Notes under the pieces: model-generated
The model's input: only the letters and a program-made list of their open reading frames with translations
The model's database searches: none
What the model was told of the DNA's origin: nothing
In this document: piece by piece, positions 1 to 10,215 of the stretch
Numbering within the stretch: the stretch's first letter is position 1
Layout of the letters: every line of letters begins with the position of its first letter
NCBI GenBank assembly: GCA_022822725.1
Contig: JAJEAN010000007.1
Span: 321,435 to 385,434 of the forward strand
Direction: 5' to 3'
DNA: 64,000 nucleotides
Source of the DNA: Candidatus Latescibacterota bacterium
GTDB lineage: Bacteria > JAAXHH01
Program-made: the position numbers and the translations under genes

Positions 1-990
1 CAGATCATCGACCAGATGGAAGCCGCTCTCGAGGATGCCCGGAGACACGGTTTCCTCGGCGCCAACATCCTGGATACGGGCTTCGACCTCGAGTTGTACG
101 TCCATCCCGGGGCCGGGGCCTACATCTGCGGTGAAGAGACGGGACTAATCGAATCTCTCGAGGGCAACCGGCCCTACCCCCGGCTGAAACCGCCGTATTT
201 TCCCGCCGCCATCGGCCTCTGGGGCCAGCCCACAATCGTCAACAACGTGGAGACCATGGCCCAGATCGCCACCATCGTCGATATGGGCGCGGAAACCTAC
301 AAGGCCATCGGTTCGGAGGAGGATACGACCGGGCCGCGGCTCTTCGGCCTGTGCGGCCACGTGAAGAATCCCGGCATCTACGAGTACGATTCCGGTGTCA
401 CGCTGAGGGAACTGATCTACGATGTGGCCGGCGGCATCCGGGACGGCAACCGGCTCAAAGGGGTCATTCCCGGCGGGATCTCGGCGCCGATCCTGACGCC
501 GGAGGAAATCGATACCCCCATGGGGTTCGGCGCCCTGGGCAAGCTGGGGTCCATGGGCGGAACCGGCGGGATCATCGTGATGGACGAGACCACCAGCATG
601 GTGGACGCCCTGCTCAATGCGTCTTCCTTCGCCGCCCATGAGTCCTGCGGCCAGTGCACGCCCTGCCGCGAAGGGGTGCCCTGGATGAACGACATCCTGC
701 GGCGTATCCGCAACGGCCAGGGCAGGGATGAAGACCTGGACCTGCTGCTCGACATCTGCAAGCAGGTGCACGGCCACACCGTCTGCGTCTTCGGCCAGGC
801 GCCGGGTGTCTGGCCCGTGCGCACCATACTCGTCAAGTACTGGCCCGAGTTCAGGGCCTGCATCGAACGGAAGGAACTGGTCGTGCCGCCCCTGGAGGAA
901 TCCTACCTGCGGCCCGACCAGTACGAACACATTCCCCCCGTACCCGGCAATTTCCGGCTGAAGACCGATGAAGCCGACGCCGCCGGATGA
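1..990 (+). CDS. nuoF: NADH-quinone oxidoreductase subunit F, C-terminal part (5' end outside window)
   Basis: This is the NADH- and FMN-binding subunit of the peripheral arm of complex I. The frame is open from base 1, so the gene starts upstream; about 329 codons are visible. The fragment carries the conserved GEETGLIESLEG stretch near its start, then the VNNVET motif, and near codon 215 the SCGQCTPCREG motif whose cysteines, with a later one in the HTVCVFG stretch, bind the N3 4Fe-4S cluster. The stop is 7 bp before the nuoG ATG, so the genes are co-transcribed. nuoE would be expected just upstream. Confidence 0.96.
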   Translation, partial: QIIDQMEAALEDARRHGFLGANILDTGFDLELYVHPGAGAYICGEETGLIESLEGNRPYPRLKPPYFPAAIGLWGQPTIVNNVETMAQIATIVDMGAETYKAIGSEEDTTGPRLFGLCGHVKNPGIYEYDSGVTLRELIYDVAGGIRDGNRLKGVIPGGISAPILTPEEIDTPMGFGALGKLGSMGGTGGIIVMDETTSMVDALLNASSFAAHESCGQCTPCREGVPWMNDILRRIRNGQGRDEDLDLLLDICKQVHGHTVCVFGQAPGVWPVRTILVKYWPEFRACIERKELVVPPLEESYLRPDQYEHIPPVPGNFRLKTDEADAAG

Positions 991-997
991 GCGAATC

Positions 998-2608
998 ATG
1001 GCAACCATTACCATAGACGACCAGCAGTACACCGTGGAAGAAGGCCGCAACCTGATCGACGCGGCGGCGGACCTGGGCATCGACATCCCCCATTTCTGCT
1101 ATCATCCCGGCCTGGCGCCGGACGGCAACTGCCGGATGTGCCTGACCGAGATGGAGATACGGCCCGGTCAGTTCGGCATCGTCACCTCGTGCACGATACG
1201 GATCAAGGACGGGATGAACTTCCGGTTCAATTCCCCGGCGGTGCTGGACAACCGCAAGGGGGTCATGGAGTTCCTGCTCATCAACCACCCGCTGGACTGT
1301 CCCTGGTGCGACCAGGCCGGTGAGTGCAAGCTGCAGGACCATTCCTTCGACCACGGCCGGGGCCACAGCCGTTTCGTCGAGACCAAGCGCGTCCCGCCGA
1401 AGAAGGACCTGGGGCCGCACATCACGCTCTACACGACGCGCTGCATCCTGTGCCAGCGCTGCACCCGGTTCTGCGACGAGATCACGGGTACGTCGGAACT
1501 TGGCGTCGTCCAGATGGGCAGCAAGTCCGAGATCGCGACCTTCGAAGGCGTCCCCCTGGATAACAAAATGTCGGGGAACGTGGCGGACATCTGTCCCGTG
1601 GGTGCCCTGGTCACCAAGGACTTCCTCTACAAGCCCCGCATCTGGCATTATGAGAAGGTGGACACTTTCTGCCCGGGATGCGCCACGGGGTGCAACACCA
1701 CGCTGGAAGTCCTGCACCAGAAAATCTACCGGACCAAACCCCGGCACAACGAGGACGTGAACGGGTACTGGATGTGCGACGAAGGCCGGTTCTGCTACCA
1801 CGGCTGGCAGGACGCGGACCGGTTGAAAGCGCCGCTGAAGCGGGTGGATGGTGAATTGCGCCAGGTCACGTGGCCCGACGCCATGGATGCGGCCGTCGGC
1901 GGTATCCAGGCCGTCCTGGCGGTCGAAGGAGAAGCCGCCATGGGGGTGGTCGGATCGTCCATGGCGACCAACGAGGAGAACTACCTGCTGCGCAGGCTGG
2001 GTGCGGAGGCCTTCGGGTCGCCGCGGACCGGTCTCGACCGCAAGCCCGATGGTGAAGCGTGGACGTCGAAAAGCGGATTCCACATCGACGCGGACAAGAC
2101 GCCCAACACCCGGGGCGCCCGGGACATGCTCGGCGCCGGCTCGCTGGACGATATCCTGCAGGGCATCGATGACGGCTCTATTCGGGGGCTTTACGTGCTG
2201 GGCGGCGATATCGGCCACACGCTGTCACCGGATGTGGCCGAGGCTTTTGGAAAGCTCGAATTCCTGGTGGTGCACGACGTGCATCGTTCCGACCTCGCCG
2301 AGCTGGCCGACGTGGTCTTCGCCGGGGCGATTCCCTTCGAGAAGCACGGCACCATGACCAATGCGCAGGACCGCGTGCAGCGGTTGAACCCCGCATTTCC
2401 ACCGCCCGGAGGCGCCAGGGAGGACTTCGCGATGCTCCGGTACGTGGCACAGCGCATGGGCGTCGACCTGGGCGGGACGGACCCCGCCGAAGTCCTGGAG
2501 GAAATCGCCGGCCGCGTGGAAGGATACGCGGGACTCACCTACGACCTGGTCGGAGATCAGGGCGTCATGAAGGGCGGCGAAGAACCGTCCGAGGCCGCGG
2601 GAGGTTAG
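998..2608 (+). CDS. nuoG: NADH-quinone oxidoreductase subunit G, condensed form
   Basis: Iron-sulfur subunit of the complex I peripheral arm, 536 residues from ATG 998. The motifs are: a 2Fe-2S site (C34, C45, C48, C65), an N5-type site with a histidine ligand (H97, C101, C104, C110), a 4Fe-4S site (C149, C152, C155, C199), and an N7-type CxxCxxxC-x27-C site (C225, C228, C232, C260). A short molybdopterin-oxidoreductase-like region follows to the C-terminus. Classical NuoG proteins have about 670-900 residues; the loss here is in the molybdopterin-like part, while all cluster ligands remain. An in-frame ATG at 968 lies inside nuoF; 998 fits the family N-terminus. nuoH begins 5 bp downstream. 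Confidence 0.94.
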   Translation: MATITIDDQQYTVEEGRNLIDAAADLGIDIPHFCYHPGLAPDGNCRMCLTEMEIRPGQFGIVTSCTIRIKDGMNFRFNSPAVLDNRKGVMEFLLINHPLDCPWCDQAGECKLQDHSFDHGRGHSRFVETKRVPPKKDLGPHITLYTTRCILCQRCTRFCDEITGTSELGVVQMGSKSEIATFEGVPLDNKMSGNVADICPVGALVTKDFLYKPRIWHYEKVDTFCPGCATGCNTTLEVLHQKIYRTKPRHNEDVNGYWMCDEGRFCYHGWQDADRLKAPLKRVDGELRQVTWPDAMDAAVGGIQAVLAVEGEAAMGVVGSSMATNEENYLLRRLGAEAFGSPRTGLDRKPDGEAWTSKSGFHIDADKTPNTRGARDMLGAGSLDDILQGIDDGSIRGLYVLGGDIGHTLSPDVAEAFGKLEFLVVHDVHRSDLAELADVVFAGAIPFEKHGTMTNAQDRVQRLNPAFPPPGGAREDFAMLRYVAQRMGVDLGGTDPAEVLEEIAGRVEGYAGLTYDLVGDQGVMKGGEEPSEAAGG

Positions 2609-2612
2609 TGGA

Positions 2613-3671
2613 TTGGTCCTGGACCCCATGATCCTGGATGGCGCCATCGCCCTGGTCAAAATCGGCATCCTGCTGGGGGTCGTGTTCACGACCGTCGCCT
2701 ACCTCACCTTCATGGAACGCCGGGTGAGCGCCCTGATCCAGGACCGGATCGGTCCCAACCGCGTCGGTCCCATGGGCCTGCTGCAGCCGCTGGCCGACGG
2801 CATCAAGTTCATGTGGAAGGAAGAGTTCATCCCGGCGAGCGCCGACCGGAAGCTCTTCGCCATCGCCCCGGCCCTCATCCTCGTCCCGGCCCTGTTGATT
2901 TTCGCCGTGATTCCCGTGGGCGGCGAAGTGACCATCCCCTCTTTCACCCTGTTCGGCCTGCAGATCCAGGAAACCACGACCACGCTGCAGATCATCGATC
3001 TGAATGTCGGCATCCTGTATGTACTGGGCATGACCTCCGTCGCCGTTTACGGGATCGCCCTGGGTGGATGGAGCGCCAACAACAAGTTCACCCTGCTGGG
3101 AGGCATCCGGTCGTCGGCGCAGATGATCAGCTACGAACTCTCGCTGGGCCTGTCCATCGTCGGCATCCTCATGCTCACGGGGTCGCTGCAGATGAGCCAG
3201 ATCGTCGACGCGCAGGACGGGTTCCTCGACTGGTTCATCTTCCGCCAGCCGCTGGCCTTCCTGATCTTCGTCATCGCGGCCTTCGCGGAGAACAACCGGC
3301 TGCCTTTCGACCTGGTCGAGTGCGAGCAGGAACTCGTCGGCGGCTTCCATACGGAATACAGCAGCATGCGTTTCTCCATGTTCATGATCGCGGAGTACGC
3401 CAGCATGATCGCAGCCTCCGCCCTGATGGCGACCCTCTTCTTCGGCGGGTGGCACATGCCCTTCGAGGACCAGGTCGGACCGGGACTGGTAACGCTGTAC
3501 CAGGTGGCCGGTTTCCTGCTCAAGACGGGATTCTTCCTCTTCGTCTATATCTGGGTGAGGTGGTCGCTGCCCCGGTTCAGGTACGACCAGTTGATGGCGA
3601 TCGGTTGGAAGGTGCTGCTGCCGCTGGCCCTGTTGAACGTCGTAATCACCGGAATCTGGATGCTGGTCTGA
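2613..3671 (+). CDS. nuoH: NADH-quinone oxidoreductase subunit H
   Basis: Membrane subunit that lines the quinone chamber where the peripheral and membrane arms of complex I meet; 352 residues with about eight or nine hydrophobic helices. The family motifs MERR, QDRIGPNRVGP near residue 45 and ENNRLPFDL followed by EQELVGGFHTEYS are present. The start chosen is TTG 2613, because GGGAGG at 2599-2604 sits 8 bp before it. The first in-frame ATG (2628) is 23 bp from that site. The gene is tightly packed between nuoG and nuoI. Confidence 0.95.
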   Translation: MVLDPMILDGAIALVKIGILLGVVFTTVAYLTFMERRVSALIQDRIGPNRVGPMGLLQPLADGIKFMWKEEFIPASADRKLFAIAPALILVPALLIFAVIPVGGEVTIPSFTLFGLQIQETTTTLQIIDLNVGILYVLGMTSVAVYGIALGGWSANNKFTLLGGIRSSAQMISYELSLGLSIVGILMLTGSLQMSQIVDAQDGFLDWFIFRQPLAFLIFVIAAFAENNRLPFDLVECEQELVGGFHTEYSSMRFSMFMIAEYASMIAASALMATLFFGGWHMPFEDQVGPGLVTLYQVAGFLLKTGFFLFVYIWVRWSLPRFRYDQLMAIGWKVLLPLALLNVVITGIWMLV

Positions 3672-3687
3672 TAGGGGAGTGTGATCC

Positions 3688-4257
3688 ATGGCAATCATCG
3701 TAGAAGCGCGCAAGATGACCCTGACGGAGCGGCTGTACCTTCCCGCGGTGATCAAGGGCATGCTCCTGACCCTCGCGCATCTCTTCAAGAAGAAGGTCAC
3801 CATGCAGTACCCGGAGGTGCAGAAGATACTGCCGCCCGGATACCGCGGCGCCCACCGGCTCAACAAGGACGAGCAGGACCGGGTCAAGTGCGTGGCCTGC
3901 GAGATGTGCGCCGTGGCCTGTCCCGCCGACTGCATCACCATCGAAGGCATGGAAACGGAATGGAACGACCGGGAGAAGATCCCCCGCACGTTCCAGATCG
4001 ACATGCTTAGGTGTATTTTCTGCGGCATGTGCGTGGAAGCCTGTCCCGAAGACGCCATCGACATGACGGACGACATCGAACTCGTGGCCACGTCGCGGGA
4101 AGAGATGATCTGGGACCGGGAACGCCTGCTGAAGAACTACGATGAAACCAGAGATCAGGAGGGCACGCTGGGCCAGGTCCTTCGAAAGAGCCGGGAGGCC
4201 TTTACGCGCCCCCGGGGAGATCAGCTACCCGACCCGGGCGGACCGGGCGGTCATTGA
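3688..4257 (+). CDS. nuoI: NADH-quinone oxidoreductase subunit I (two 4Fe-4S ferredoxin)
   Basis: Carries clusters N6a and N6b between NuoB and the rest of the peripheral arm. In its 189 residues two CxxCxxCxxxC motifs are visible: C68, C71, C74, C78 and C109, C112, C115, C119. An amphipathic N-terminal segment precedes them. The last ten residues (DQLPDPGGPGGH) are encoded by a GC-rich repeat that runs on through the TGA stop into the spacer before nuoJ, so this tail is probably not conserved protein. Confidence 0.95.
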   Translation: MAIIVEARKMTLTERLYLPAVIKGMLLTLAHLFKKKVTMQYPEVQKILPPGYRGAHRLNKDEQDRVKCVACEMCAVACPADCITIEGMETEWNDREKIPRTFQIDMLRCIFCGMCVEACPEDAIDMTDDIELVATSREEMIWDRERLLKNYDETRDQEGTLGQVLRKSREAFTRPRGDQLPDPGGPGGH

Positions 4258-4302
4258 ACGGCCAGGCGGACCAGCCGGACCGGGCGGTCACTGGGAGGCC
4301 GG
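4231..4302 (+). repeat. GC-rich direct repeat across the nuoI stop codon
   Basis: The 14-mer GGACCGGGCGGTCA occurs at 4240-4253 and again at 4277-4290, within a tract built from GGACCGGGC-like units. The tract runs through the nuoI TGA (4255-4257) and fills most of the 66-bp nuoI-nuoJ spacer. It belongs to the wider family of period-9 tracts in this window. Confidence 0.75.
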
Positions 4303-4323
4303 GAGTCGCCCAAACGAGATTTC

Positions 4324-4839
4324 ATGGAACTCTACTTCTTTCTGTTTTTTGCCATAGTAGCCGTCGCGAGCAGCGTGGCCATGATCCTGCAGCGCAACCC
4401 GATCTACTGCGTGCTGCTGCTCATCATGGTCATGATATCCATCGCCGGCCTGTACCTGATGCTGGACGCCGAGTTCGTCGCGATCATCCAGATCGTCGTG
4501 TATGCCGGCGCCATCATGGTGCTCTTCCTCTTCGTCATCATGCTGCTGAATCTGAGCCGAGAGGAGGGCGGGACGTTCCGGATCCAGAAACCGCTGGCCG
4601 TCGTCCTGGCCGCGCTGCTGTTCCTGCCCCTGGCGGCCATGGTCATGTCCTATGCGGGAGGCGGAACGACCACGCCGGTTGATGGCGGCGAAGCCGGATT
4701 CGGCGAAGTGGAACAGATCGGAACGTTGTTGTTCACGAAATACCTGCTGCCCGTGGAGATCGCGGCCGTACTTTTGCTGATCGCCATCGTGGGCGCCGTG
4801 GTGCTTACGCGCAAGGGCACCGTTGCCGTGGACGGATGA
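4324..4839 (+). CDS. nuoJ: NADH-quinone oxidoreductase subunit J
   Basis: Small antiporter-linking membrane subunit of complex I; 171 residues with five predicted hydrophobic helices. The conserved third-helix region (QIVVYAGAIMVLFLFVIML) is present near residues 57-75. The start ATG 4324 follows the repeat-filled spacer after nuoI, and no strong Shine-Dalgarno sequence is visible. nuoK begins 30 bp after the stop. Confidence 0.95.
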   Translation: MELYFFLFFAIVAVASSVAMILQRNPIYCVLLLIMVMISIAGLYLMLDAEFVAIIQIVVYAGAIMVLFLFVIMLLNLSREEGGTFRIQKPLAVVLAALLFLPLAAMVMSYAGGGTTTPVDGGEAGFGEVEQIGTLLFTKYLLPVEIAAVLLLIAIVGAVVLTRKGTVAVDG

Positions 4840-4869
4840 GGCGCTGACCGTACCTGAATCGACGAACCC

Positions 4870-5172
4870 ATGATCCCTGTCTCCTATTACCTGGTCCTGA
4901 GTGCCGTGCTCTTCCTGGTCGGCGCGACCGGCGTGCTGGTACGGCGGAACGCCATCATCGTCCTGATGGGCATCGAGTTGATGCTCAATGGGGCCAATCT
5001 TTCCTTCGTGGCCTTCGCCCGGCAGTTCGGCATGGCGGACGGCCACATCTACGTATTCCTGGTGATTACCGTGGCGGCAGCCGAGGTGGCCATCGGCCTG
5101 GCCCTGGTGATCCTGCTGTTCCGCAACCGCGGGACGGTCAACATCGACGAGGTCCGGTCCCTGCGCTGGTAG
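4870..5172 (+). CDS. nuoK: NADH-quinone oxidoreductase subunit K
   Basis: Three-helix MrpC-like subunit of the complex I membrane arm, 100 residues, the usual length. Both conserved membrane glutamates are present: one in GIELMLN near residue 38 and one in the AAAEVAIGLA segment near residue 73. It sits between nuoJ and nuoL in the standard order. Confidence 0.96.
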   Translation: MIPVSYYLVLSAVLFLVGATGVLVRRNAIIVLMGIELMLNGANLSFVAFARQFGMADGHIYVFLVITVAAAEVAIGLALVILLFRNRGTVNIDEVRSLRW

Positions 5173-5209
5173 CGGCTCGACCGGCCGGCCCGGACCCTGT
5201 GTGAACAAC

Positions 5210-7135
5210 ATGACCGAATCCTTCAGTTACGTCTGGCTGATCCCCTTCCTGCCCCTGCTGGGCGCCTTCATCAATGTATTCTGCAACCGGAACCCCAGGG
5301 TGTCCGGGATGATCGCCTGCGTCACGGTCGCGGCGTCCTTCCTGCTCGTGCTTGCCGTCTTCTTCCAGCTCATCGGGCTGCCGGAGGAGGATCGCAGCGT
5401 CGACGTGGTGGTCTATTCGTGGATTACGGCAGGCACTTTCGCGGTGGACGTGGCCTTCCTGATCGATCCGCTTTCGACGGTCATGATGCTGGTGGTTACG
5501 GGCGTCGGACTGTTGATCCACGTCTATTCCATCGGCTACATGGGCAAGGACACCTGCTGCGTCCGGTACTTTTCCTATCTGAACCTGTTCATGTTCGCCA
5601 TGCTCATTCTCGTGATGGGCAACAACTTCCTGCTGATGTTCGTCGGCTGGGAAGGGGTCGGGCTCTGTTCCTACCTCCTGATCGGGTTCTGGTGCGAAAG
5701 GCAGTCCGCGGCAAATGCCGGCATGAAGGCCTTTGTCGTGAACCGCATCGGCGATTTCGCCTTCATCCTGGGCCTGCTCCTGATCTTCCTGTACGCCGGC
5801 TCACTCACCTACGCCGAAGTGTTCGCGGCGGACCCGGCGGTGCTCGCCCCGGTCATCACGGCCGTCACCCTGCTGCTCTTCATCGGGGCTATGGGCAAGT
5901 CCGCCCAGGTGCCCCTGCACGTCTGGCTGCCGGACGCCATGGAAGGCCCCACGCCCGTCAGCGCGCTGATCCACGCGGCCACCATGGTGACCGCGGGTGT
6001 GTACATGGTCGCCCGCTGCCACGCGCTCTTCGCGCAGTCCGCCACGGCCATGACCGTCGTGGCCGTCGTCGGCGCGGTCACGGCCCTCTTCGCCGCGTAC
6101 ATCGCCCTGACCCAGTACGATATCAAGCGCGTCCTGGCCTATTCCACCGTGAGCCAGCTGGGGTACATGTTCCTGGCCTGCGGCGTCGGCTATTTCACCG
6201 CGGGGATCTTCCACCTGGTCACCCACGCGTTCTTCAAGGCCCTGCTGTTCATGGGCGCGGGCAGCGTAATACACGCGCTGGAACACGCCCTTGAGAAGGG
6301 CAGGGACCCCCAGGACCTCCGCAACATGGGCGGACTCCGCGATCTCATGCCGGTGACCTACAAGTCCATGCTGCTGGCGACCCTGGCCATTGCCGGGATC
6401 GCCCCGTTCGCGGGTTTCTTCAGCAAGGACCTGATCCTGCTGGGCGCCTTCGTAAACGCCCCCGTGCTTTGGCTGGTCGGCCTGTTGACCGGGGCGATGA
6501 CCGCCTTTTACATGTTCCGGCTGCTGTTCATGACCTTCGGCGGCGAGACCCGGCTGAACCGGGACGAAACCGAAAAGGTACGTGAATCGTCCCGCGTCAT
6601 GACCATACCCCTGGTCCTGCTGGCCGTGCTCTCCACCGTGGGCGGGTTCATCGGCATCCCCCACGTGTTCGCGGAAGGCATGGACCGGTTCGGCGGATTC
6701 CTCGCGCCGGTGTTCTCCGGGCTGCCGGAGGCGCAGGTCCCGTCCGCGAGCGTCGAACTGGTGCTGATGGTCCTGGCCCTGCTGATGGCCGCGGCCGGCA
6801 TATGGGGCGCTTACACCGTGTACATCCGCGGCAACACGGTGTTCGACCGCCTGGTGCCGCGGGCGCTGTATACGCTTTCGCTGGAAAAGTTATATGTGGA
6901 TGAAATCTACGACGCGGTCATCGTGGGCCCGGTGCGGAAGATCGCCCGGGGCTGCTGGCGTATCCTGGATTCCGCGATCATCGACGGAGGGCTGACCCTG
7001 GCCGCGCTCACGGTACGCAGCATGGGGAACGCGATCCGGTATACGCAAACGGGGGTCGTTCAGAACTATGCGCTGATCATGGTCATCGGCGCGCTCGTGG
7101 TGTTCGCCTACATCACCGGTTTCCTGGGACCGTAA
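5210..7135 (+). CDS. nuoL: NADH-quinone oxidoreductase subunit L
   Basis: Distal antiporter-like proton-pumping subunit of complex I, 641 residues from ATG 5210. GTG 5201 is an alternative start; neither has a clear Shine-Dalgarno sequence. The conserved GKSAQVPLHVWLPDAMEGPTPVSALIH stretch is intact, as are the DIKRVLAYSTVSQLGYM segment and a C-terminal extension of the kind that forms the lateral helix. The stop codon lies inside a 13-bp tandem duplication. The intact PDA-M-EGPTPVS loop is a useful contrast to NuoM downstream. Confidence 0.95.
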   Translation: MTESFSYVWLIPFLPLLGAFINVFCNRNPRVSGMIACVTVAASFLLVLAVFFQLIGLPEEDRSVDVVVYSWITAGTFAVDVAFLIDPLSTVMMLVVTGVGLLIHVYSIGYMGKDTCCVRYFSYLNLFMFAMLILVMGNNFLLMFVGWEGVGLCSYLLIGFWCERQSAANAGMKAFVVNRIGDFAFILGLLLIFLYAGSLTYAEVFAADPAVLAPVITAVTLLLFIGAMGKSAQVPLHVWLPDAMEGPTPVSALIHAATMVTAGVYMVARCHALFAQSATAMTVVAVVGAVTALFAAYIALTQYDIKRVLAYSTVSQLGYMFLACGVGYFTAGIFHLVTHAFFKALLFMGAGSVIHALEHALEKGRDPQDLRNMGGLRDLMPVTYKSMLLATLAIAGIAPFAGFFSKDLILLGAFVNAPVLWLVGLLTGAMTAFYMFRLLFMTFGGETRLNRDETEKVRESSRVMTIPLVLLAVLSTVGGFIGIPHVFAEGMDRFGGFLAPVFSGLPEAQVPSASVELVLMVLALLMAAAGIWGAYTVYIRGNTVFDRLVPRALYTLSLEKLYVDEIYDAVIVGPVRKIARGCWRILDSAIIDGGLTLAALTVRSMGNAIRYTQTGVVQNYALIMVIGALVVFAYITGFLGP

Positions 7136-7151
7136 CCCGGGACCGTAACCC
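7126..7151 (+). repeat. 13-bp tandem duplication over the nuoL stop
   Basis: GGGACCGTAACCC is present twice in direct contact (7126-7138 and 7139-7151). The nuoL TAA (7133-7135) is inside the first copy, so the second copy is untranslated. Confidence 0.8.
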
Positions 7152-7174
7152 CAAAGGAACTGAAGGTACCGTAC

Positions 7175-8752
7175 ATGACGGAACTGCCTTACCTGTCCCT
7201 CATCATCTGGCTGCCGGTCCTGGGCGCCGTCCTGCTCCTCATCGTCAAAGGGGACACGGCCGCCCGGTGGGTGGGATTCGGCGTTTCGGCCCTGGTGCTC
7301 GTCCTCTTCGCAGTCTGCTTCGGCGCCTTCGAGGCACACCTGGGCGAACCGCAGTTCGTGGAGCGCATGCCCTGGATCGAATCGCTGGGCGTGTCCTATC
7401 ACGTCGGCGCGGACGGCATCAGCATCCTCCTTGCCGGGATCACCGCGCTCATGTGGCCCCTGGCCCTGCTCGGTACCTGGACGATCGTAAGCGAGCGGGT
7501 CCGGGCCTACCAGGTTTTCATGCTGCTGATGGAAACCACCCTGATGGGCGTGTTCTTCTCTCTCGACCTGTTCCTGTTCTTCCTCTTCTGGGAAGGCATG
7601 CTGATCCCCATGTACTTCCTGATCGGCATCTGGGGATATGAGAACAGCGCCCGGGCGGCCCTGAAGTTCTTCCTGTTCGCCGTGTTCGGCAGTCTGCTGA
7701 TGCTGGCCGCGGTCATCACGCTGGCCTTTCTCTATCACCAGGCCCACGGCGTCCTCACCTTCGAGATGGCGGCGCTTTACCAGCTGTCCATCCCGGCCGA
7801 TGTTCAGTTCTGGCTCGCCCTTGCCTTCATCGCCGCCTTCGCGGTCAAGGTGCCCATGGTGCCCTTCCACACGTGGCTGCCCGATGCCATCGTTCTCGCC
7901 GTGGTGCTCGTCAAGATGGCGGCCTACGGGTTCATTCGCCTGACCCTGCCGCTGTTCCCCGATGCCCTGGTCGAGCTGGCGCCCCTGATGTGCGCCGTGG
8001 CGGCGGCCGGGATCGTCTACGGCGCGCTGATCGCCCTGGCACAGTCGGATATCCGGCGGATGATTGCCTATTCGACGATCAGTCACGCGGGGTTCGTCGT
8101 GCTCGGCGTATTCGCGCTGAACCAGCACGGCATTCAGGGCGCGGTCGTCCACATCGTCAGCCTGGCGCTGTCCACGGGCGGACTGTTCCTGGCCGCCATG
8201 ATGCTCGTCCAGCGCCGGAATACCTGGGACATGGATGCGTACGGCGGACTGTGGCACACGATTCCGGTATTCTCCGCTTTTCTGCTCTTGTTTACCCTGG
8301 CCTCCGTCGGCCTTCCGGGCCTGAGCAGCTTCGTCGGGGAATTTCTCATATTGGTCGGCGTGTTTCAGCAGAACATCCTGATCGCGGCCGTCGCGGCCAC
8401 GGGAGTCATCCTGGCGGCCGTCTACATGCTCAGAATGTACCGAAAGGTGGTTTTTGGCCCACTGACGCGGGAAGAGAACAAGAGGATCCGGGACCTGTCG
8501 TTCCGGGAGACGGCCGTGCTTGCCTGCATGACGCTGTTCATCATCTGGATCGGGGTGTATCCGAATCCGTTCCTGCGGACCATGGAAGCTTCGGTGCAGA
8601 AACTCCTCGTCCAGACCCACCGTCTCGCCGAGACGCCGCCGGCCGGGATGGTCCCCGTTTCCACTGAATCGATTCCGCCGGCAGATCCGGCCGGCCCGGG
8701 CGGACCGTCCGGCCCGGACGCAACCCCTGAAATCAGCCAGGATACACGATGA
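7175..8752 (+). CDS. nuoM: NADH-quinone oxidoreductase subunit M, with a missing conserved loop
   Basis: Antiporter-like proton-pumping subunit of complex I, 525 residues. The family is clear from VPMVPFHTWLPDA (ending at A238), LALAQSDIRRMIAYSTISHAGF and the LPGLSSFVGEF segment. In NuoM proteins PDA is normally followed by H-x-x-APTAGS and then the lysine-bearing helix. Here A238 is followed directly by IVLAVVLVKMAAYGF, so about nine residues (27 bp) are absent in frame. The C-terminal tail (ADPAGPGGPSGPD) comes from a GC-rich repeat at 8685-8720. The TGA overlaps the nuoN ATG (ATGA). Confidence 0.92.
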   Translation: MTELPYLSLIIWLPVLGAVLLLIVKGDTAARWVGFGVSALVLVLFAVCFGAFEAHLGEPQFVERMPWIESLGVSYHVGADGISILLAGITALMWPLALLGTWTIVSERVRAYQVFMLLMETTLMGVFFSLDLFLFFLFWEGMLIPMYFLIGIWGYENSARAALKFFLFAVFGSLLMLAAVITLAFLYHQAHGVLTFEMAALYQLSIPADVQFWLALAFIAAFAVKVPMVPFHTWLPDAIVLAVVLVKMAAYGFIRLTLPLFPDALVELAPLMCAVAAAGIVYGALIALAQSDIRRMIAYSTISHAGFVVLGVFALNQHGIQGAVVHIVSLALSTGGLFLAAMMLVQRRNTWDMDAYGGLWHTIPVFSAFLLLFTLASVGLPGLSSFVGEFLILVGVFQQNILIAAVAATGVILAAVYMLRMYRKVVFGPLTREENKRIRDLSFRETAVLACMTLFIIWIGVYPNPFLRTMEASVQKLLVQTHRLAETPPAGMVPVSTESIPPADPAGPGGPSGPDATPEISQDTR

Positions 8753-10215
8753 ATTCGGCCCTGCCCGCCATAAACATCTACGCCGTGATGCCGCAGATCG
8801 TACTCGTGTCCGCCGCGACCGTGGTCCTGATCGTTGGCCTTTTCGAACGGTTTCGCAAGGGGATCCCATACCTTTCCCTGCTGCTCCTCGCGGTATCCGG
8901 CGTCGTTGCCGTGAACCAGCTGGGCCGGGGACCCGTCGCCTTCTCGGACGTTTCTCCCATGATGGTGATGGACGACTTCAGCCTGGTGGCCACCCTGGTG
9001 TTCATCGCCGGTGCCGTGTTGACCGTACTGATCTCCATCTCCTATGCCGAAGCCCGTTCCATCGACCGCGGGGAGTACTATGCGCTGCTCATCTTCGCCG
9101 TGTCCGGCATGAGCATGATGGCGGCGAGCACCGACCTCTTCACCTTTTTCCTGGGACTTGAAGTACTCTCCATATCGCTTTACGTACTGATCGGCTTCGA
9201 ACAGCGGGACGCCGGCTCTAACGAGGGCGCCCTGAAGTATTTCCTGCTGGGCGCTTTCGCCAGCGGTTTCATTCTCTACGGCATGGCCCTGCTCTACGGC
9301 GCGAGCGGCAGCACGGAGTACGACGTCATCGCGCGGACGTTGGGCGGGGAACGCAGCGACGCCGTGAATCTCCTGCTGCTCGGTGGATTGGGCCTGCTCC
9401 TGGTCGGGATCGGTTTCAAGATCTCCATGGTCCCGTTCCACGCCTGGACGCCGGACGTGTACCAGGGCGCGCCGACACCCGTCGCGGCCTTTCTGTCCAC
9501 CGGTTCCAAGGCGGCCGCTTTTGTGGTATTGATCCGGCTGCTCGTTTCGGTATTCCCCGGCCTTCAGATGGAGTGGATCCCGCTGATCTCGGTGCTGGCG
9601 ATCCTCACGATCGCCGTCGGAAACGTCGTGGCCCTGGTTCAGACGAACCTGAAAAGGCTGCTGGCCTACTCGAGCATCGCTCATGCCGGCTACATGCTGC
9701 TGCCCCTCATGGCGGGCAGCCAGGACGGCAGCGCGAGCATCGTCTTCTACCTGATCGTATACACGGCGATGAACATGGGCGCCTTCGGGGTGCTGGCCGT
9801 GCTCTCCGCCCGCGGGATGCCCTGCGCGACGATGGACGACCTGGCCGGCCTGGGCAGCCGCCGTCCCCTCCTCGCCGCGATCTTGGCCGTGGTCCTGTTT
9901 TCCCTGGCCGGCATTCCGCCCACGGCCGGGTTCATGGCCAAATTCTACCTCTTCAGCGCGCTGGTGTACGGAGGATACGTGGAACTGGCCTTGATCGGCC
10001 TGCTTTTCAGCGGCGTGTCGTTGTACTACTATCTGCGCGTCGTGGTATGGATGTACATGCGGCCCGCGGCCGAAGCGCCGGCCGAAGCGGCCGGCCGCCT
10101 GTCCTTCAGCGGCATGACCGCGCTCTGCCTCTCCGCCCTGGCCATCCTGGCCGTGGGCGTTTTCCCCTCCGAACTGCTTCAACTGGCCGAGCAGGCGGTC
10201 ATGACGCTGCCGTAA
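8749..10215 (+). CDS. nuoN: NADH-quinone oxidoreductase subunit N
   Basis: Third antiporter-like subunit of complex I, 488 residues with about fourteen hydrophobic helices. The conserved VPFHAWTPDVYQGAPTPVAAFLS loop is complete, and LLAYSSIAHAGYML and IPPTAGFMAKF follow. Its start overlaps the nuoM stop (ATGA), suggesting translational coupling. It is the last gene of the nuo operon; no hairpin-plus-T terminator is visible after it, but a promoter-like sequence follows at 10266. Confidence 0.95.
   Translation: MNSALPAINIYAVMPQIVLVSAATVVLIVGLFERFRKGIPYLSLLLLAVSGVVAVNQLGRGPVAFSDVSPMMVMDDFSLVATLVFIAGAVLTVLISISYAEARSIDRGEYYALLIFAVSGMSMMAASTDLFTFFLGLEVLSISLYVLIGFEQRDAGSNEGALKYFLLGAFASGFILYGMALLYGASGSTEYDVIARTLGGERSDAVNLLLLGGLGLLLVGIGFKISMVPFHAWTPDVYQGAPTPVAAFLSTGSKAAAFVVLIRLLVSVFPGLQMEWIPLISVLAILTIAVGNVVALVQTNLKRLLAYSSIAHAGYMLLPLMAGSQDGSASIVFYLIVYTAMNMGAFGVLAVLSARGMPCATMDDLAGLGSRRPLLAAILAVVLFSLAGIPPTAGFMAKFYLFSALVYGGYVELALIGLLFSGVSLYYYLRVVVWMYMRPAAEAPAEAAGRLSFSGMTALCLSALAILAVGVFPSELLQLAEQAVMTLP

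Follow-up and report, generated by a model that had tools for sequence, protein, structure and literature searches.

The NuoM subunit of complex I encoded in the window (the whole stretch of 64,000 nucleotides that was analysed) has lost nine residues from the loop between transmembrane helices TM7b and TM8, including the histidine associated with proton uptake, and the same loss is found throughout an order-level clade of uncultured marine and sponge-associated bacteria. The protein is probably a working, lineage-wide and selected NuoM that would still be assembled and active, in which proton entry from the cytoplasmic side (N-side) would have been remodelled in NuoM specifically. The gene (nuoM, NADH-quinone oxidoreductase subunit M, 525 amino acids; 7175..8752, + strand) was assigned by its matches to TIGR01972 and PF00361 and by operon order, being placed between nuoL and nuoN in a normal nuoF-G-H-I-J-K-L-M-N arrangement (window positions 16-10215). 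The predicted protein scores 526 bits with the TIGR01972 NDH_I_M profile (curated cut-off 263.8), compared with 156 bits for the N-subunit model, and 209 bits with PF00361; the bridging histidines and the TM7b-TM8 loop are conserved features of NuoM, and are not the features that decide membership. The stop codon of nuoM and the start codon of nuoN share four bases (ATGA, 8749-8752), which suggests translational coupling.

The open reading frame of nuoM reads ...AVKVPMVPFHTWLPDA|IVLAVVLVKMAAYG..., with VPFHTWLPDA joined directly to IVLAVVLVKMAAYG. The junction (7886..7891, + strand) falls between A238 (codon 7886-7888) and I239 (codon 7889-7891), which correspond to A247 and V257 of E. coli K-12 NuoM and leave H248-S256 missing; the register of this mapping was checked by the recovery of E144, K234, K265, H322, H348 and E407, each under its published number. 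Alignment of the DNA gives a clean, in-frame gap of exactly 27 columns. The first-pass annotation, which had ended the PDA motif at A238, estimated a loss of about nine residues and proposed a clean in-frame deletion of 27 bp, is confirmed by both alignments. All four of the PDB alignments listed (8qby of Paracoccus, 8e9g of Mycobacterium and two plant Nad4) have a nine-residue insertion at the junction or within a few residues of it. The loop (HxxAPTxxS, with the uptake histidine) is absent from 12 of 12 NuoM proteins of the clade and missing from none of 53 NuoM proteins of other genomes, including that of E. coli, in agreement with its earlier description as near-invariant; the equivalent loops of NuoL (PDAMEGPTPVS) and NuoN (PDVYQGAPTPV) are retained in the same operon, also as first described. 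No clade insertion that could supply the missing residues elsewhere in NuoM was found, nothing convincing was seen at the junction among short direct repeats able to mediate a deletion, and the genome to which the window belongs encodes no second, normal NuoM (only NuoL, NuoM and NuoN match, and there is one NuoD).

Every genome of the genus with NuoM sequence over the junction has the same gap (11 of 11): ten encode full-length proteins, the window's own among them, and in the one partial case (G004) NuoM is in two fragments on different contigs. The nine other full-length proteins of the genus are 90-96% identical to the window NuoM. The same junction is present at 65% protein identity in a genome from another family of the order (G015), on a contig of about 50% GC; none of the 12 clade NuoM in the alignment of related genomes has the 27 bp. 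The first-pass annotation had considered a possible assembly error, but the clade contigs belong to separate assemblies from several projects, some of them 0.6-2.9 Mb in length, and the occurrence of one junction in 11 other genomes, including the divergent family, effectively rules out an error of assembly or sequencing and leaves it a negligible probability; nothing was found in its favour. A whole clade with the gap, which that annotation had named as evidence against its own reading, tells against error and decay and makes the finding itself stronger.

A normal-loop NuoM binned in genus member G009 is on a 4.7-kb contig (G009:C168:1-4694) that encodes NuoM and NuoN only 42% and 41% identical to those of the genus, and was taken as contamination, probably of the bin. 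The contigs of two other members of the order (G012 and G014) end before the loop. NuoM was not detected in G013, a member of the same family, in which Mrp-like antiporter genes are clustered on contig G013:C98. The public labels of near relatives conflict (Gemmatimonadetes versus Candidatus Latescibacterota) though they are placed in one genus or order. A scan of 84,980 GTDB genomes with a degenerate nucleotide pattern encoding H-x-W-L-P-D-A-[IVM]-x-L-A, which tests for that exact junction only, found eight loci, of which seven are labelled Candidatus Latescibacterota or Gemmatimonadetes; the eighth, in Tahibacter, is an unrelated chance match in an RsmB-like methyltransferase gene. No mention of a NuoM variant of this sort was found in the open-licence papers searched.

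The first of the deleted residues is equivalent to H248 of E. coli, H246 of Paracoccus and H218 of Thermus, and mouse ND4 has H220 at the same place in TM7b (PMC13324432, PMC9802314, PMC11496545, PMC10396290). This histidine has been named on the input path in E. coli, Thermus and mouse (PMC13324432, PMC11496545, PMC10396290), and in Paracoccus it lines the N-side channel for proton uptake between TM7b, TM8 and TM10, and the substitution H246F abolished catalysis (PMC9802314); the relevant residues were not found in the text of PMC3046159. The view that the loss lies beside the proton path is supported, and the loss is specific to NuoM. The E. coli path includes H348 as well as H248 (PMC13324432), and the clade has also lost this residue: L330 (8162..8164, + strand), at the position of E. 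coli H348 and Paracoccus H346, is leucine in 12 of 12 clade proteins and histidine in 53 of 53 others. H348 bridges K265 to E407, and its loss should be tolerable because the Paracoccus H346Q variant keeps about 78% activity and 4 H+ per NADH (PMC9802314). One helical turn before L330, the genus has gained a histidine (H326, equivalent to E. coli Q344; 8150..8152, + strand) where the G015 protein has glutamine. At the channel entrance, W351 (8225..8227, + strand) occupies the position of E. coli R369 and Paracoccus R367, the LHON site of human ND4, with tryptophan in 12 of 12 clade proteins and arginine in 52 of 53 others; R367H is harmless in Paracoccus (PMC9802314), but the change from arginine to tryptophan is larger. 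The two histidines altered in the Paracoccus Nqo13 variants H246F and H346Q are the same two that are affected in the clade, with the difference that H246F kills catalysis by itself, whereas the clade is naturally without the residue, has lost the whole loop and has other changes in addition (PMC9802314).

The ionisable residues of the lateral axis are all retained, according to alignment with E. coli and, for K247, the structural model also: E140 (E. coli E144, the TM5 glutamate of the ion pair; 7592..7594), K225 (E. coli K234, the TM7 lysine of the ion pair; 7847..7849), K247 (E. coli K265, the central TM8 lysine; 7913..7915), H304 (E. coli H322, a bridging histidine; 8084..8086) and E389 (E. 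coli E407, the NuoM-specific terminal glutamate of TM12; 8339..8341), all on the + strand. Of the bridging histidine pair, H322 is kept and H348 is lost. The placement of the key lysine after the gap in the first-pass annotation holds for the TM8 lysine, K247, but the TM7 lysine, K225, precedes the gap; both are kept. Also retained are the gating leucine (L235), the TM7 histidine (H232) and tryptophan (W234) and the TM11 phenylalanine (F338). Of 90 columns that reach at least 95% conservation in the comparison with the 53 other NuoM proteins, including that of E. coli, the clade differs at 14, five of them in the gap and the others at T178, L264, A/G267, S319, H348, G360, Y363, H367 and R369. 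A bias of NuoM substitutions towards the N-side half is not significant with the gap left out (Fisher p = 0.29).

The nuoM gene is under strong purifying selection. Within the genus, dN/dS is 0.129 for NuoM, 0.147 for NuoL and 0.121 for NuoN; it is 0.009 for NuoM residues 211-265, and there is no nonsynonymous difference, at a pS of 0.19, in the 25 residues that span the junction (226-250). The junction is the most conserved part of the clade NuoM, and the only loosely constrained part is the tail (residues 481-525; 8615-8749), a proline- and glycine-rich, low-confidence segment of variable length in the genus with dN/dS of 0.42. Decay of NuoM is ruled out by its dN/dS together with the absence of amino acid change at the junction. 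The broader proposal that NuoM is decaying or has become purely structural, so that pumping by this unit is dead, would fit the lethal effect on Paracoccus complex I of mutating the lost residue (PMC9802314), but it is largely refuted by the selection data and improbable: the axis residues are intact, no broken copy exists among the full-length NuoM of the genus, and the ion-pair and terminal residues, whose loss reportedly brings the enzyme as a whole to a halt (PMC9802314), are kept. On the same observations, the earlier suggestion that the change may disable pumping is not supported.

The conserved columns of the complex I subunits (at least 90% conserved in 15-18 outgroup operons) were compared with the clade. 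Differences were found at 29 of 142 such columns in NuoM, seven of which are gap columns and some of which reflect a NuoM subfamily nearer to that of E. coli, as against 3 of 162 in NuoL (5201..7135, + strand; loop and axis normal), 1 of 55 in NuoN (8749..10215, + strand; loop normal), 0 of 15 in NuoK, 4 of 68 in NuoH and 2 of 14 in NuoJ. The ratio of clade-to-outgroup distance to outgroup distance is 1.34 for NuoM, 1.00 for NuoL and 0.84 for NuoN, and the range for NuoM in 30 bootstraps overlaps with neither of the others. Thus, of the pump subunits, NuoM alone evolved fast in the clade. NuoL has a clade-specific insertion of seven residues (HALEKGR) at residue 362 (about 6284-6304, in the TM11-TM12 region) that at least 90% of 18 outgroup NuoL lack, and there are small clade insertions in NuoH (5 amino acids) and NuoN (3 amino acids) also, without known link to the NuoM gap.

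The structure of the window NuoM was predicted with AlphaFold2 from 35 aligned sequences, with the normal-loop NuoM of G039 as a control (mean pLDDT 86.5 and 92.5, respectively). In the PDB, the window model matches NuoM/ND4 chains best, with Paracoccus NuoM first (TM-score 0.88 by query and 0.91 by target). The control model has TM7a at 207-222, TM7b at 233-240 and TM8 at 243-268; the window model has TM7a at 208-223, no TM7b helix of at least four residues, and TM8 at 239-260. Residues 224-238 of the window model are non-helical except for one short turn, and TM8 starts 8 residues before the K247 lysine, compared with 12 in the control; pLDDT is 60-69 over residues 221-240, and the local geometry of the junction is thus unreliable. 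In these predictions, the overall fold of NuoM is kept and the TM7b helix is lost. The clade protein resembles the NuoM/Nqo13/ND4 subunits of E. coli, Paracoccus denitrificans and Thermus in fold, operon place, TIGR01972 and PF00361 matches, residues E144, K234, K265, H322 and E407, and the HTWLPDA motif; it differs from them in the missing H248-S256, in leucine for H348 and tryptophan for R369, and in the TM7b helix absent from the model.

The most probable explanation is that the common ancestor of the order-level clade lost the TM7b-TM8 loop of NuoM with its uptake histidine, and that, on the long stem branch that carries the loss, H348 would have been replaced by leucine and R369 by tryptophan. 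That the gap and these two substitutions share a branch suggests co-adaptation, and the outgroup is too deep to order the deletion and the substitutions in time. With the lateral axis (E144-K234, K265, H322 and E407) retained, the subunit would still be assembled and take part in coupling; we infer that the variant is still functional in a coupled complex I because selection has been maintained and the axis residues have been kept. Protons would reach K265 off the canonical TM7b-histidine route, either through an entry of reduced length and altered hydration or laterally from the adjacent subunits, and it is about equally likely that NuoM takes them in over a shortened path and that it takes in none.

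One plausible, tentatively held form of this explanation is that uptake continues through a shortened and more open entry: with TM7b and the opening turn of TM8 gone, K247 would be nearer to the cytoplasm and the histidine would be unneeded as a stepping stone. The late start of TM8 relative to its lysine and the mostly non-helical segment 224-238 in the model are consistent with such an entry, as are the retention of L235, H232, W234 and F338 and the gain in the genus of H326, a single turn away from where H348 was, but confidence in the model is low at the junction, TM8 (IVLAVVLVK) has no new polar residue, and a bulky tryptophan stands in place of the channel-mouth arginine.

It is also possible, if somewhat doubtful, that NuoM gave up uptake of its own and passes protons only laterally, as NuoN may do, with uptake through NuoL and the E-channel and possibly fewer than four protons per NADH. 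The sequence changes would suit this arrangement, for the clade has lost the residue held crucial for uptake by ND4, as well as H348 and R369, and every lateral-axis residue is present. A published single-unit model has uptake in NuoL and NuoM and exit only in NuoL, and NuoN/Nqo14/ND2, thought to pass protons laterally and probably without N-side input, offers a possible functional parallel (PMC10212512), but NuoN keeps its own APTP loop and the clade protein is clearly NuoM by the profile scores given above. Paracoccus variants retain 4 H+ per NADH whenever the enzyme turns over, so a lower stoichiometry is no easy outcome (PMC9802314). Each genome has two PF02621 genes, of the MqnA/MqnD family of the futalosine route to menaquinone. 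Menaquinone gives less driving force, which would favour lateral supply with fewer protons, but a normal NuoM is common among organisms that use menaquinone, and menaquinone use alone is insufficient as a cause of the change in NuoM.

The mechanism by which complex I takes in its four protons and releases them is disputed, with four separate modules on one side and, on the other, a single unit that conducts along its axis and releases protons through NuoL. Evidence from point mutants is difficult to interpret, because many of the central ones kill the enzyme. In this clade, evolution has removed the uptake histidine and loop of NuoM and kept the lateral axis, under purifying selection across an order, and has thereby provided a natural test of proton uptake for pumping by complex I. 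If the complex I of the clade turns over, the TM7b histidine is not universally required, and the stoichiometry and structure of this enzyme would bear directly on whether NuoM must itself take up protons. Should NuoM prove to receive protons only laterally, they would enter through fewer subunits, the clade would be a natural counterpart of the experiment that sets four separate modules against one unit, and the proton-to-electron ratio of these bacteria may be lower.
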